Shown here: positions 527-63,741 of the stretch, piece after piece
Layout: each line of letters starts with the position of its first letter
Numbering within the stretch: position 1 is the first letter of the stretch
Origin: Symbiodinium natans
Lineage: Eukaryota > Sar > Dinophyceae > Suessiales > Symbiodiniaceae
NCBI GenBank assembly: GCA_905221605.1
Contig: CAJNDS010000036.1
Coordinates: 310,001-374,000 of the forward strand
Reading direction: 5' to 3'
Length of the DNA stretch: 64,000 nt
Notes under the pieces: generated by a model
Told to the model about the DNA's origin: nothing
Databases searched by the model: none
The model's input: only the letters and a program-made list of their open reading frames with translations
Made by a program: the position numbers and the translations under genes

Positions 527-564
527 CTCAGCCGGGGCATGGTAATCTCGAAGCGCAGCTCCAC
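527..564 (-). CDS. Channel exon: end of C-linker, toward CNBD
   Basis: Reads VELRFEITMPRL after an AG|G acceptor and continues the preceding exon's ISEPLR. The pattern SEPLR-VEL-x-FE is typical of the C-linker E'/F' region just before the cyclic-nucleotide-binding domain. The donor is probably GA (AG|GAGGG) and leads straight into a TTTAGGG array on the coding strand. It leaves two bases of a split codon, so the gene must continue past the left edge. Confidence 0.82.
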
Positions 565-3500
565 CTCGGCGCTGCGTCTTGTCATCGGAAACCGCAAGAA
601 GCCATGAAGGGCCAATACCGGGGTGGTTTAGGGTTTAGGGTTTAGGGTTTGGGGTTTAGGGTTTAGGGTTTAGGGTTTGGGGTTTAGGGTTTGGGGTTTA
701 GGGTTTAGGGTGTGGGGTTTAGGGTTTAGGGTTTAGGGTTTAGGGTTTAGGGTTTAGGGTTTAGGGTTTAGGGTTTAGGGTGTGGGTTTAGGGTTTAGGG
801 TGCCCACATATGGGGGCTTCAACCATGAGAATAGTTGCTTTTTTTTTTGAGAGGGGGGGGGGGTTATTAGAGTAGAGAAATATAGGGCACCATAAGGGAA
901 CACGAATAGCGTAGCTCAGGACTTAGGGTTTACTGGTTTGGGGCTTATGGGGTTTAGGCCTGAGGGTTTAGGGTTTTCGGGGATCCCAACCCTGCACGTT
1001 GATCTGACGAATGTCGGGCTTAAGGCTGAGCCCTTTTTTTTAACTCTCATTGTGCTAGTTTGAGTGGGGCTTGGGGTTTCGGGTTTAGTGCTTTTCAAAC
1101 CCTAAACCATAAACCGTAATATTAAGCCTAAACCACTAGCCCTAAACCTAAACCCTAAATCCCTTTTGAGCTCTTGATGGCCGCTGGGGGGGGGGGGGGG
1201 GGCGGGGGGGGGGGGGGGGCGGGGGGGGGGGGGCGGGCGGGGGGGGGGCGGGGGGGGGGGGGGGGGGGGGGGGGGGGCGGGGGGTGGGGGGGGGGGTGGA
1301 AGACTGGGGGGCTGTAAGGCCAGTCAAAAATGTATACAAAAAATATATATATATACATATATATTTGTACATATATATATATATATATTTACATATACAT
1401 ATATGCATATATGCATATACATATATATGTTTTATGACTATGTTGATATTGCTATTGATTTTATTATTGTTATTATTATTGGTATTATTCTTACTTAGTC
1501 TTAGTCTCATTCTTCTCATTATTATTATATTCCAAACTCTTTAATTATTGATGTTAGGGCTTGGGGTTCGGGGTTTAGGGCTTAGGGCTCAGGGAAGCAA
1601 ATGCTCCAAGAGGGTGAAGAAGCGGCTTCTGTCGGGGCCTGCGTCGTGGAGGTCGCTCTCTTGGGATCACGTGATCCTATTGCTGCTACGTCCCCCAACC
1701 GGCAAGCCGAACAGACCTAAACACCGAGCCCTCCCTCCCCCAGAGGATTTAGGGCCCTCCCTCCCCCAAAAGGTTTAGGGTTAGGGTTTAGGCGTAGGTA
1801 GGGTTGAGGGTTGAGGGTTTAGGTCCCTAAACCCTGGGCCCTTGAAGCATACCTGCACTGAGACCTCCACCCGAAGGGGTTCCGAGATGAACGCCAAGAG
1901 CTCGATGTCCTCCTCCGGCGTACGCCTCGGGCTTTGCAGCCTTTAGGGCCTTGGGAGCTTTGGGTCTGTAGGGTTTAGGGTTTAGGGTTAAGGGTTTAGG
2001 GTTTAGGTGAAATAGAGTTTGGGGTTGTAAGGGCTTTCGCCGTCAACCCTAAACCCTATGAAACCCTGAACCCTAAACCCTGGATGCAGGCCCATGTGGT
2101 CTTCAGGCTTTAGGGCTTTCGGGTTCTGGGGCCCTTCGCCTCAATTCGAACTACTCACAAGTGCACCTATACCGTAAACCCTAAACGCAAATTACACCCC
2201 AGACCCCAGCAAAACCAGGGGTTCCTCAGCCGAAGCCATACACCCTGAGCCCTCAAAACCCTGAACCCTCCAAACCCCCTGAAGCCTGAAGCCTGAACCC
2301 GAAAAACCTGTAAACCCCAAAAAACCTATGCACCCTCTAAATAACCCTATAAACCCGATAGACCCTGTATTACGGAGTAGAAGGAGGGAACCCTAGGAAG
2401 GCCCCTTAATCTTATTCCCCTATATACCCCTCATATATATATATATGTATGTATCTCTTGTATAGTCCCTATATACCCAAGTAGCCCCTAAATAACCCCT
2501 AAATAACCCCTAAGGTCCCCCTTATATGGGCTAAACCCTAAACCCTAAACCCTTAGTCCCTTGACTGTAAACCCCACAAACCCTGAACCCTAAGTCAGTG
2601 TCAGAGGCCCAGGCCGTTTCATCTCATCCATGGCATGCTGCGCGTTCCTCTGGACCTGAGGCGGCAGGTTTAGAGTTTAGGGTTTAGGGTTTAGGGTTTA
2701 GGGTTTAGTGTTTAGGGTTTAGGCGGTTTAGGGTTTAGGCGGTTTAGGGTTTAGGTAAGCCCACTGTAGCCCCAACAGCAAAGAGGACTGACTAAACATC
2801 CATCAGCCCTAAACCCTTAAACCGTTAAACCCTTAAACCCTTAAACCCTTAAACCCTTAAACCCTTAAACCCTTAAACCCTTAAACCTTTAAACCCTTAA
2901 ACCCTTAAACCCTTAAACCCTTAAACCCATAACAAGTAAACCCTAAAACCCTAAACCCTTAACCCTGAAAGCGCAAGCCCAGAGCCCAAAACAAACGAGC
3001 CAGGCTCACGAGGCAGCTAACCCAGAGACTCCAAGACCTCCTAATTAAGAAATGTCCCGTAACCTATAATAGGAACCCTAATGTGATTTTAAGGTCTATT
3101 CCCTAATTGAGAAATGTACCTTAAATTATAATAGGAAGTCTACTATTATGTAAAGGTACATTTCCTAATTGAGAGGTTTTGGAGTCTCTGGGAATGTCCA
3201 GTGTGCGGAGCATCCCAGGATCTGCGTTGTACCCTGCACAGTGCATATCGTCTTCGGCAGCGCTGGTGCCAAATGGGCTTATGGTTTAATTAGGGTCTTT
3301 GGGGTTTAGGGTTTAGGGTCCATCTTTCTTCTCATAATCTTGGCTTTCTTCTTACAATCTTGGCAGAAAGTCCACGTGGCCCGCGTTGGAGGCTCCGCCA
3401 AAATTCCCTGGACAGAATGTGCCTCGCGGGCACTTGCGGCTCGGCCCGCAGCCTACATGTTCACTGCAGGGCTGAGGCGCAAGGATTTCTTCCTCGAAGT

Positions 3501-62800: not shown

Positions 62801-63741
62801 CCCTAAAACCCCTAGCCCTAAACCCTAAACCCTGCACCCTCTAGCCCTAAACCCTAAACCCTCTAGACCTAAACCCTAAACCCTCTAGACCTAAACCCTA
62901 AACCCTAAACCCTAAACCTTAAACCCTAAACCCTTCAAGCATGCGCGCCTCGCAGCTTCGCAGATCTTCCATGTTCACCTGCTGCCCCGCGAGCGCGCCC
63001 GGCTTCCTCCGGCGAGGAGTTTCGAGGTTGGCCCATTGATCCGGGTTTAGGGCTTATAGGGTTTGGGGTTTGGGGTTTGGGGTTTAGGGTTTAGGGTTTA
63101 GGGTTTAGGGTTCGGGGTGTGGGGTTTAGGGTTTGGGGTGTAGGGTGTTATGGGTTTAGGGGTTTAGGCTGTTAGGGGTCCTCTTCACCTGCAATGAGGG
63201 ACAACACAACCTGGGTTTGGGGCTTTAGGAGTTTTTTTTGGGAGGGCTTTTCGGTTTTTTTTTTTTTTTTTTCGGATTTTCGGGCCTTTAGCTTTGAGGA
63301 CCTTGAGGGCGCCAGAGCTTTTAGGGTTTTATAGGGGTTTAGGGTTTGGGGTCTAGGGTTTTTTTGGGTTTGGGTTTTTCTAACGGTTTTTAGGGTTTTA
63401 TAGGGGTTTAGGGTTTGGGGTGTAGGGTTTAGGGTTTTTCAGGGCTTTAGGGTTTGGGGAATTTGGGGTTTGGCGTTGGCTGGAGGTTCGTGGTACTTAG
63501 TAACCAATTATAACTGTACTTATAACCCACTGATAAGCCCCCTTAAGTGCCCTAATATGGTTATAAGTACAGTTCTAAGGACAGTTATAATTGATTACAG
63601 TTATAAGAACAGTTATAATTGGTTAAAAAAACACCATGAACCTCCAAGCACCCGAAGCCCTTGCCAACTCCTGAGGATGATCTCGTGCGCCCGGCTGGCG
63701 ATCAGGAACGGGTTGAGGCCCGGATAGCCCCGCCGGAACTC
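59307..63741 (-). CDS. Spliced gene model: TBCC/RP2-type C-CAP domain protein (5' end outside window)
   Basis: Six minus-strand exons (63741-63671, 63006-62949, 61685-61635, 60595-60545, 60128-60061, 59859-59307) join in phase. The product contains the tubulin-binding-cofactor-C / CAP-like beta-helix: KPGALAGQQVNMEDL, VYICDPTAQARLHKG, TFVDSCVESLILVG, GALCIRDCQSCTVWAAAQQ, NCRHCTFHIYSKTPP, then FAPWSAGFAQCAGQF. In the family these domains occur in tubulin cofactor C, RP2 and TBCCD1, acting on tubulin or on Arl-type small GTPases. The catalytic Arg of cofactor C/RP2 sits in the QxxxR strand, and here QQVRV keeps that Arg. Which subfamily it belongs to cannot be told. Donors are GA, GC, GT, GC, GA. 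Confidence 0.88.
60061..60128 (-). CDS. TBCC-domain gene exon
   Basis: Reads GALCIRDCQSCTVWAAAQQ and VRV plus a split Lys. The C-x-x-C followed by ACQQ-like AAQQ-x-R is the most conserved strand of the C-CAP fold. The acceptor is AAG|GGGG, or one base later; the donor is GA (AA|GAACCC). Confidence 0.9.
60159..60267. repeat. Mixed TTTAGGG/TTTTGGGG array
   Basis: Hepta- and octamers with extra T or G, in the intron between the TBCC exons at 60128 and 60545. Confidence 0.88.
60545..60595 (-). CDS. TBCC-domain gene exon
   Basis: Reads TFVDSCVESLILVGVAT after TTTCAG|A. VDSCxxSLIxVG aligns with the i-x-GPv strand of C-CAP domains. The donor shares a G (GC type if shifted). Confidence 0.88.
61635..61685 (-). 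CDS. TBCC-domain gene exon
   Basis: Seventeen codons, VYICDPTAQARLHKGCK, after CTGCCAG|G and with a GT donor (AAG|GTCGGG) that leads directly into TTTAGGG. Confidence 0.9.
62765..62935. repeat. CCCTAAA array with CCCTCTAG(A/C) variants
   Basis: Standard heptamers alternate with a longer CCCTCTAG-type unit, ending close to the TBCC exon at 62949. Confidence 0.88.
62949..63006 (-). CDS. TBCC-domain gene exon
   Basis: Reads KPGALAGQQVNMEDLRSCE after GCCGGAG|G; GC donor GAG|GCGCGC. (R)KPG-x-L-x-GQQVN-x-EDL is the classical start of the C-CAP domain. Confidence 0.92.
63480..63649. mobile_element. MITE-like element, family A (nested palindrome)
   Basis: Outer ends GGAGGTTCGTGGT / ACCATGAACCTCC (one mismatch) and a perfect inner pair CCAATTATAACTGT / ACAGTTATAATTGG. 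About 170 bp, the longest and clearest family-A copy. It ends about 20 bp from the TBCC exon donor. Confidence 0.72.
63671..63741 (-). CDS. TBCC-domain gene exon, first in window
   Basis: Reads EFRRGYPGLNPFLIASRAHE and then IIL, ending in two bases of the Arg that opens KPGAL. Acceptor TTTGAG|G, donor AG|GAGTTG (GA). Lies upstream of the C-CAP domain; upstream exons must lie beyond 64000. Confidence 0.85.

Follow-up and report, generated by a model that had tools for sequence, protein, structure and literature searches.

Telomere-like repeat arrays with a preferred polarity around the micro-exons of a channel gene in Symbiodinium natans

Introduction

Why should telomere-like repeats stand on both sides of a gene's exons, and mostly in one direction? 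The question arises from a 64-kb stretch of the Symbiodinium natans genome (hereafter the window: positions 310,001 to 374,000 of contig CAJNDS010000036.1, i.e., C36:310001–374000, numbered below from its first letter), where arrays of TTTAGGG and CCCTAAA surround the micro-exons of a channel gene. From the letters alone, a first-pass annotation had read each intron of two genes as starting with UUUAGGG and ending with CCCUAAA repeats in the pre-mRNA, and had suggested that these ends pair and loop out the intron, which could be a spreading element with telomere-like terminal inverted repeats (TIRs). This was partly confirmed: the array polarity exists, although not as widely as had been claimed. 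It is firmly seen in the channel gene, recurs by half in an ankyrin gene and elsewhere at coding-like islands, and is not seen upstream of the myosin exons sampled.

A minus-strand channel gene built of micro-exons

The assembly contains 205 exact copies of the 21-mer DinoSL and none of its reversed control, as befits a dinoflagellate; a looser search reported 244 DinoSL in S. natans CCMP2548 (PMC8045281). A first set of homology queries, made from the exon peptides of the first-pass annotation, gave no channel match, the best being a light-harvesting beta chain (E = 0.017) and TMEM240 under its cut-off (E = 0.0034). Once pore exons were included, residues 6–92 of the query aligned weakly to SthK-type channels (E = 0.026–0.027), and the joined peptide gave two Pfam matches, both sub-threshold (E = 0.3 and 0.45), and five homologs at E ≤ 2.9e-28 among 78 candidates. 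The best homolog, P0001, is an 836-aa protein with 77% identity across all 95 query residues and precomputed Ion_trans (PF00520) and cNMP-binding (PF00027) domains; another, P0003, comes from Effrenium voratum. Given a homolog with both domains and exons that are colinear by tblastn, we assign the gene to the voltage-gated channels with a cyclic nucleotide-binding domain (CNBD).

Among the matches listed, tblastn of P0001 places 30 colinear minus-strand micro-exons in the window, from 50,120 down to 523, and 14 more beyond its left edge (C36:290591–309704). The mapped gene thus spans C36:290591–360120, i.e., at least 69.5 kb, of which the part within the window covers 0.5–50.1 kb. Rows of ≥20 bits were considered in the window and of ≥24 bits for the outside exons. 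Single exon matches are short and weak, many being non-significant alone (E up to 13 in the window and, among those used, up to 0.46 outside), so that exons were assigned by their colinear order. Their borders were set by eye, with trimming for 13 of the 14 outside exons and for most window exons. Estimated donors are GC at 25, GT at 11 and GA at 8 of 44 sites (the finder picks whichever fitting dinucleotide is nearest), similar to the shares of 58/23.6/18.4% published for S. natans (PMC10666404). A 15.1-kb interval of the gene probably hides further exons. Of the two genes that the first-pass annotation had seen in the window, one is established, at 0.5–50.1 kb, and a second was not identified.

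Arrays are polarised around the channel exons

We defined arrays as exact units separated by gaps of ≤12 nt and covering ≥18 nt, and labelled them F for TTTAGGG and R for CCCTAAA. Within 100 nt upstream of the 44 channel exons, read in gene sense, the dominant orientation is CCCUAAA at 31, the opposite at 6, and neither or tied at 7; within 100 nt downstream it is UUUAGGG at 29, the opposite at 7, and neither or tied at 8. For the 30 window exons, sense CCCTAAA coverage peaks at 53% at 40–60 nt upstream, vs 8% for the opposite orientation and a window mean of ~10%, while sense TTTAGGG covers 39% of positions at 40–60 nt downstream (opposite orientation, 11%). Coverage is back to baseline past ~200 nt from exons, and gene stretches >600 nt away from any exon are symmetric (F 0.068, R 0.071). 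The observed score was reached by none of 20,000 circular shifts, alike for the 30 window exons, the 14 outside exons and all 44 together.

The same polarity is seen from the side of the arrays. Among the islands of 30–160 nt that separate neighbouring arrays in the window, a placed exon occupies 13 of 42 whose left-hand array is R and right-hand array F (R-F), none of 20 F-R, 1 of 14 R-R and 3 of 19 F-F. The remaining 29 R-F islands, which lack a P0001-supported exon, lie in part in the unmapped 15-kb interval or to the right of 50 kb and in part within mapped introns.

The first-pass annotation was right in taking most of its islands for exons and in linking array polarity to exons whichever strand they are on. 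In nine of the eleven islands it had named, the closest arrays are R to the left and F to the right, both within 80 nt. Of the other two, 16728–16787 has a left-hand F 268 nt away and 36010–36040 a right-hand F 910 nt away. Eight of the eleven overlap independently placed P0001 exons, whereas 36010–36040, 60545–60595 and 62949–63006 are unsupported by P0001. The framing of each intron did not hold: in gene sense, only 19 of the 43 intervals open with F and close with R (within 150 nt of the ends; the reverse in 1), and the 22 myosin exons weighed below are without upstream bias.

Spacing of arrays in the window and beyond

The window holds 569 TTTAGGG and 518 CCCTAAA units in 101 F and 105 R arrays, and all 206 are interstitial telomeric sequences, internal to C36 (310–374 kb of 1,126 kb). 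Across the 759-Mb genome, the 21-mer of three CCCTAAA units has 1,184,385 and 1,185,204 matches on the two strands (overlaps counted), against 33 and 41 for a reversed control. The order of neighbouring arrays in the window is near random (RF 55, FR 55, RR 49, FF 46); their spacing is not, since gaps of 30–160 nt number 42 from R to F vs 20 from F to R. Over 20,000 shuffles of the array labels, the R-to-F count in this range averaged 23.9 and never exceeded 38. With gaps of 60–160 nt, the figures are 39 of 55 for R-to-F and 13 of 55 for F-to-R.

We compared these values with 12 further loci totalling 117 kb, of which four lie next to the window, including two that carry more channel-gene sequence. 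There, 58 of 68 R-to-F gaps fall within 60–160 nt, vs 21 of 68 F-to-R, 12 of 53 R-to-R and 23 of 65 F-to-F gaps. Array load is uneven, with no array in two of the loci, 2–4 in two and 8–55 in eight. The array-free loci are C1:100001–110000 (L013) and C120:200001–210000 (L017), with GC contents of 0.53 and 0.56; loci with at least 24 arrays have 0.49–0.51, and the plus-strand 21-mer matches on C1, among those listed, start at 235 kb. Genome-wide, a pattern of two units, 85–115 unspecified bases and two units matches 107,320 times as R-F and 41,057 times as F-R, counts that include several matches per site and are inflated to some extent where the unspecified gap may contain arrays. For a gap of 250–280 bases (191,698 matches) such inflation is greater and makes the count unreadable. 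Chance and strand artefact are rejected as sources of the polarity by the label shuffles, the circular shifts and the recurrence in other loci. Polarity, closeness to exons and recurrence in other loci are what the data show.

Individual channel exons and their arrays

All 30 window exons are on the minus strand, and each was placed by a tblastn row of P0001 unless another basis is stated; distances run from the exon to the R or F array on its left or right, on the plus strand. The expected arrangement, R left and F right, surrounds QQTHGTINLREG at 50082–50120 (E = 0.31; 7 and 15 nt), QGLQSMARQVQAHHEYLMQA at 47935–47994 (27 and 6 nt), AKMTTFELAGCWQ at 32775–32813 (E = 1.5; 51 and 39 nt), DSASDTESESS at 30127–30168 (E = 0.90; 59 and 22 nt) and CAQRVRSRIMPLMISPNATFRSC at 28651–28722 (27 and 35 nt). 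It recurs at VAIGGVGSLNAARMGKT (21027–21077; 29 and 25 nt), EGSWLQQARFQD (13617–13652; 47 and 36 nt), YERTYSVIALLLCFILSA (8603–8656; 76 and 13 nt), SIVSSITTSMTRLSIARSK (8137–8193; 35 and 20 nt) and VQRNAQHAMDEMKR (2614–2655; 20 and 11 nt), and likewise at SKAAKNSLTRLKARVA (32060–32107; 4 and 29 nt), which was placed by order and by eye from a weak row (34% identity, E = 13), and at VLACAW (16138–16155; 33 and 28 nt), which follows from P0001 continuity and is without a tblastn row of its own. At the leftmost window exon, VELRFEITMPRLRR (523–564), R touches the left border and F lies 60 nt to the right; the gene continues past the left edge.

The arrays of three of these exons serve as examples. 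Exon 8137–8193 stands between R at 8048–8101 and F at 8214–8276 (to 8300 by Tandem Repeats Finder, TRF), exon 16138–16155 between a perfect R array of 11.7 CCCTAAA units at 16023–16104 and F at 16184–16258, and exon 32060–32107 between R at 31856–32055 and F at 32137–32305.

Around other exons one array is distant or missing. F lies close on the right and R far on the left at MIPLSLFDLGPSVVLDFIAWI (24662–24724; F 41 nt, R 326 nt), VRLFWSVDFPLSFVTGYMLPGDVVEMRPEK (23255–23344; F 32 nt, R 325 nt) and AGSTDVYPSNA (9227–9259; F 9 nt, R 181 nt), and R lies 29 nt to the left and F 150 nt to the right of KEYLKENHISSR (6918–6953). On the right of VIPHYARTWMSL (22276–22311) and VSRIVLGICKIFIFLVWVNH (16728–16787), F is found at 45 and 53 nt, with none close on the left. 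Close arrays are absent from DVSMLCVDWAE (21643–21675) and IKSIRMIRMMRLW (20030–20068), and none lies within 150 nt of RRHGATDFDAILQE (48736–48777). The arrays nearest to the pore exon IYPLYMLSYHWSLTQF (10493–10540) are R at 224 nt on the left and R at 117 nt on the right, and ETTKLAALKD (7659–7691; E = 4.5) has R at 39 nt on the left and at 123 nt on the right. The exceptions in orientation are AVASQLLDGDGTESD (31352–31396) and RLLNVNQLPESVRVL (19052–19096), with R on both sides; WDSSACLFVLYECVV (27370–27414), RRTPEEDIELLAFISEPLRV (1868–1927) and the 24-nt exon FHYYFQSE (17855–17878; E = 2.0, 8 residues identical), with F on both sides; and RYGVGDLSLQ (15234–15263; E = 0.90), with F 74 nt to its left. 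Beyond the window, exon C36:290591–290630 has a C-run before it and a G-run after it.

Recurrence in other loci

In the channel locus, a codon score trained on myosin exons, with channel-gene introns as background (as in all runs), is higher for R-F than for F-R islands (57 vs 19 islands, p = 4.1e-7); scores >8 were obtained by 22 R-F and no F-R islands, and by 2 of 22 FF and 3 of 13 RR islands. In six other loci scored with both training sets, R-F islands again rank above F-R islands (41 vs 15, p = 1.2e-5), with scores >8 for 18 R-F and no F-R islands, 4 of 17 FF and 3 of 11 RR. Overall, R-to-F islands in other loci are exon-sized and look coding.

The ankyrin gene of locus L020, which is read along the plus strand of its contig, has 11 exons recognised by homology and bordered by eye from tblastn rows. 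Upstream of these exons R outweighs F by 459 to 35 nt, and downstream F outweighs R by 386 to 196 nt; none of 9600 circular shifts reaches the observed value. At least 10 nt of R lie upstream of 10 of the 11 exons, and less than 10 nt of F lie downstream of 7 of the 11. Since upstream R is strong here and downstream F weak, the arrangement at the 3′ end of introns can stand alone.

On the minus strand of L014, the codon-scored islands DLDSSGSISFREF and QVDEYRVIFDIIDCNGDG look EF-hand-like by eye, and a tblastn with an EF-hand query in ten loci returned nothing above the 21-bit cut. To the right of the window, long plus-strand open segments at 67172–74686 (joined numbering of L009 and L010) possibly represent an intron-poor gene or a mobile element. 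Elsewhere in the genome, G000:C2030:54723–60626 has five Ion_trans matches, each with a 2079-aa open frame, and is apparently one intronless multi-repeat channel gene. Scans of the window returned no tRNA and no Rfam match. The window also contains long poly-C/poly-G tracts (1186–1296, 20335–20457 and 42896–44263) and, in an intron, five near-identical 51-bp tandem copies (25345–25597, 97% match).

A dispersed element inside a framed intron

The interior of the framed intron 8195–8603 is a plus-strand, dispersed element at 8318–8437 that resembles a miniature inverted-repeat transposable element (MITE), with TAG borders and TIRs of its own (about ACCCARGAGTAGSCT...AGGCCTACTCTGGGT; copies L044–L063). 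This window copy lies between arrays, F ending 17 nt before it (by TRF) and R beginning 3 nt after it. A genome search, in which 40 of 140 candidates were scored, gave 39 copies besides that in the window, at 73–82% identity. In none of the 20 of these that we inspected do arrays abut both ends (120 nt each side), and array distances vary, with both orientations present; within 200 nt, these 20 copies have 398 nt of F and 305 nt of R on the left, and 181 nt of F and 338 nt of R on the right. A pattern delimited the element in 13 of the 20, at 98–120 nt with a start near ACCCARGAGTA, TAG following in 12 of the 13 and preceding in 8. Because the element carries its own TIRs with the arrays outside, the telomere-like arrays are not its ends, and in this one interior searched we found no dispersed element that terminates in such arrays.

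Competing explanations for the polarity

The array pattern probably relates to how exons are spliced. Our preferred reading, held at somewhat less than even confidence, is that these are ordinary simple-repeat arrays of array-rich compartments, sorted into splice-compatible polarity by selection on splicing. In array-rich S. natans genes, arrays crowd the last and first 20–150 nt of introns. Slippage, telomerase or the repair of breaks may have seeded the arrays. Upstream of an AG|G acceptor, a G-free C/A array would bring no rival AG, and would supply pyrimidines and CUAAA near the branch-site zone, while every unit of an array in the opposite polarity would contain UUUAG|GG, a decoy for the acceptor. 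On the donor side, the downstream G-triplets stand in UAGGG, a kind of site bound by hnRNP A1 in animals, and may act as intronic enhancers or may simply be tolerated. Selection, the branch-site and enhancer roles and the mode of seeding are what we infer from the arrangement. In the channel gene the amounts of array at the two ends of an intron are independent (Spearman −0.11, p = 0.47), as expected for two separate signals.

Several results weigh against splice-compatible sorting. Estimated acceptors read AGG at 34 of 44 channel exons, under the published 97.1% (PMC10666404), so that the borders of some exons have probably been drawn wrongly. Arrays are denser near exons than in the intron interior, an excess that could not come just from losing arrays of the wrong polarity. 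The flanks of channel exons are more complementary to each other than to those of other exons (17.5 vs 15.0, p = 0.009, for 80 nt; 27.7 vs 23.1, p = 0.001, for 150 nt), an excess not predicted by independent signals, and in the ankyrin gene the intron-wise correlation of arrays is 0.72 (p = 0.02). Upstream bias is also absent from the myosin exons, sampled as 22 of 28 genome matches from 13 contigs (all 22 for array counts; 21 for skew, L029, with a stop codon, being left out and L039, also with a stop, kept). Within 100 nt upstream, 5 have the predicted orientation, 4 the opposite and 13 neither (R 101, F 74 nt), and within 200 nt the split is 5, 6 and 11 (R 161, F 168 nt). Downstream, it is 5, 0 and 17 within 100 nt (F 151, R 7 nt) and 4, 5 and 13 within 200 nt (F 209, R 148 nt). 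Telomere-like units are absent within 200 nt of 7 of 21 myosin exons, and such array-free or unbiased exons indicate that arrays are not required for splicing.

The complementarity across exons is the point from which a different account can be built, in which CCCUAAA before the short exon and UUUAGGG behind it form a telomeric RNA stem with the exon in its loop; the pairing would define the exon (or promote skipping or circular RNA), and it would be the pairing, rather than the single arrays, that selection or palindrome-mediated copying keeps. Such hairpins would also fit the correlation between upstream R and downstream F amounts across channel exons (rho = 0.46, p = 0.0017, n = 44), the concentration of R-to-F gaps around the length of an exon (window, 39 of 55; further loci, 58 of 68) and the folding of ten segments, with z-scores of −2.87, −6.05, −1.81, −3.54, −4.26, −3.99, −5.33, −3.42, +0.66 and −0.38: seven reach −2.87 or lower, and most of these pair the two arrays around the island. 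Three folds are weak (−1.81, −0.38 and +0.66), the last from a segment, 28600–28749, that includes only a third of its left array, and another segment, 60500–60640, covers an unconfirmed exon of the first-pass annotation; because any R-exon-F arrangement tends to fold in this manner, folding indicates possibility, not function. The complementarity excess vanishes at 40 nt (p = 0.24), and the correlation of exact units fades as windows widen, to 0.24 at 400 nt; allowing one mismatch gives 0.38–0.39 up to 200 nt, vs 0.16–0.26 for pseudo-exons. The two arrays bordering each of 98 R-F islands show no correlation in length (rho = 0.00), and in the ankyrin gene the exon-wise correlation (0.64, p = 0.03, n = 11 exons) is matched by the intron-wise one. 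Exon-centred coupling is therefore suggestive only, and we consider exon hairpins an unlikely basis for the pattern. A little more doubtful still is the reading that, throughout a genome compartment, telomeric RNA stems present the micro-exons in their loops, (CCCUAAA)n pairing with (UUUAGGG)n across ~100 nt, so that such repeat duplexes, perhaps bound by telomere- or hnRNP-type proteins, define exons in genes spanning tens of kilobases.

The pairing envisaged by the first-pass annotation was instead between the two ends of an intron, as part of an inserted element (introner) with telomere-like TIRs. It finds a parallel in the introners with TIRs and target-site duplications (TSDs) of Symbiodinium microadriaticum (PMC9860276) and in the simple inverted repeats prevalent at both intron ends in free-living dinoflagellates (PMC10666404), and it would suit the 19 intervals framed at both ends. 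A few two-copy matches of 36–104 nt also link distant window introns (such as 11798–11897 with 23545–23647, 104 nt; 34418–34501 with 49349–49430, 84 nt) and are possibly dispersed elements; they come from a window self-comparison with 71 alignments, of which many reflect local duplication or low-complexity sequence. Yet the ends of an intron are no more complementary to each other than mismatched ends are (p = 0.71–0.90), which leaves the pairing central to the proposal unsupported, and arrays at both ends within 200 nt barely exceed independence (24 of 43, odds ratio 2.7, p = 0.25). Direct repeats at intron boundaries average 3.98 nt vs 3.81 nt when shuffled (p = 0.13), i.e., no TSD signal, in a test made weak by homology-based borders. 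The distance from array to splice site varies from 0 to 188 and from 3 to 177 nt at the two ends, with none found at 8 and 6 sites, short ankyrin-gene introns often have R without F, and the one interior searched is a MITE-like element with arrays outside; introners are thus an improbable explanation. Framed introns could also be scars of double-strand breaks healed by telomerase and rejoined, given that the outward polarity on both exon sides (TTTAGGG, 5′ to 3′) is exactly that of a telomere, that the dinoflagellate telomere repeat is TTTAGGG (PMC11453091) and that telomeric repeats are inserted during break repair in primates and rodents (PMC7215372). However, rejoining should leave fusion scars in the form of F-R gaps <30 nt, and just 4 of 55 in the window and 3 of 68 in the other loci are so short; same-orientation neighbours are almost as frequent as alternating ones (RR 49 and FF 46 vs RF 55 and FR 55), and why breaks would flank exons is left unexplained. 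Healing may be an origin of the arrays, and is quite improbable as the account of framed introns. Least probable of all, and by our estimate very much so, is that polarity is a by-product of array-independent base composition at intron ends, or of chance or assembly. Channel introns do have a C/A skew upstream of exons and a G/T skew downstream (GC skew −0.44 and +0.23 at 8–80 nt), but masking array-like units removes most of it (−0.08 and +0.08; −0.18 and +0.11 stay at 8–40 nt), the 7 array-free myosin exons show little (−0.01 and +0.09), the circular-shift test excludes chance, and the reversed pattern has 33 and 41 matches vs 1.18 million per strand. Tentatively, then, we rank splice-compatible sorting ahead of exon hairpins, introners and break healing, while allowing that it could well be wrong.

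Relation to known systems and implications

Splice-compatible sorting, like its rivals, has to be set beside other genomes with telomere-type repeats at unusual places. One possible likeness is to the segmentation of the alveolate genome of Eimeria tenella, in that two 10-kb stretches of S. natans (L013 and L017) are array-free. In E. tenella, R-segments rich in arrays of the telomere-like heptamer AGGGTTT alternate with segments nearly free of simple repeats; in the passages covered no exon polarity is mentioned, "intron" and "exon" occurring 0 times in that text (PMC3505466). Eimeria has CAG repeats, whereas the S. natans window is without CAG/CTG runs of four or more. Interstitial telomeric sequences are likewise tandem telomere-type repeats at non-terminal sites (PMC7215372), yet in S. 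natans the 21-mer matches 1.18 million times per strand over 759 Mb, and the arrays gather next to exons with one polarity. Plant telo boxes are telomere-identical motifs in or near genes, but are described as short motifs in the gene 5′ region and not as paired arrays around internal exons (PMC3022908). hnRNP A1 offers another parallel: its motif from systematic evolution of ligands by exponential enrichment (SELEX) is UAGGGA(U), it also acts at telomeres, and its sites flanking an exon can loop that exon out (PMC3794818); a title cited in the same paper compares hnRNP A1 sites with duplex-forming inverted repeats. Such looping, unlike the dinoflagellate array pattern, has to do with individual exons under regulation in animals. 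For S. natans, Iso-Seq data have been reported (PMC8045281).

Dinoflagellate introners, described from Amoebophrya, S. microadriaticum and a Prorocentrum survey that includes S. natans (PMC7789003, PMC9860276, PMC10666404), have inverted repeats near both intron ends, a feature that part of the channel-gene introns may share (19 of 43 intervals); in these introns we saw no TSD signal, with borders that are approximate, no specific pairing of their own ends and, in the one interior tested, no shared element ending in arrays. Array-framed introns can nonetheless mimic TIRs, and might be counted as introners by searches for inverted repeats of 8–20 nt within 30 bases of intron ends, which would affect introner counts in dinoflagellates. 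In the literature covered by titles, abstract openings and passages, which included few subscription papers, we found none describing telomere-like arrays polarised around exons, the nearest being the Eimeria R-segments and the introner surveys; telomere-type repeats at both sides of very short exons, mostly in one direction, are not a pattern that we found described before. If it is general, the telomere repeat would often accompany exons, in a set polarity, within a major lineage of marine algae, and repeat expansion, splicing and long introns would become linked.

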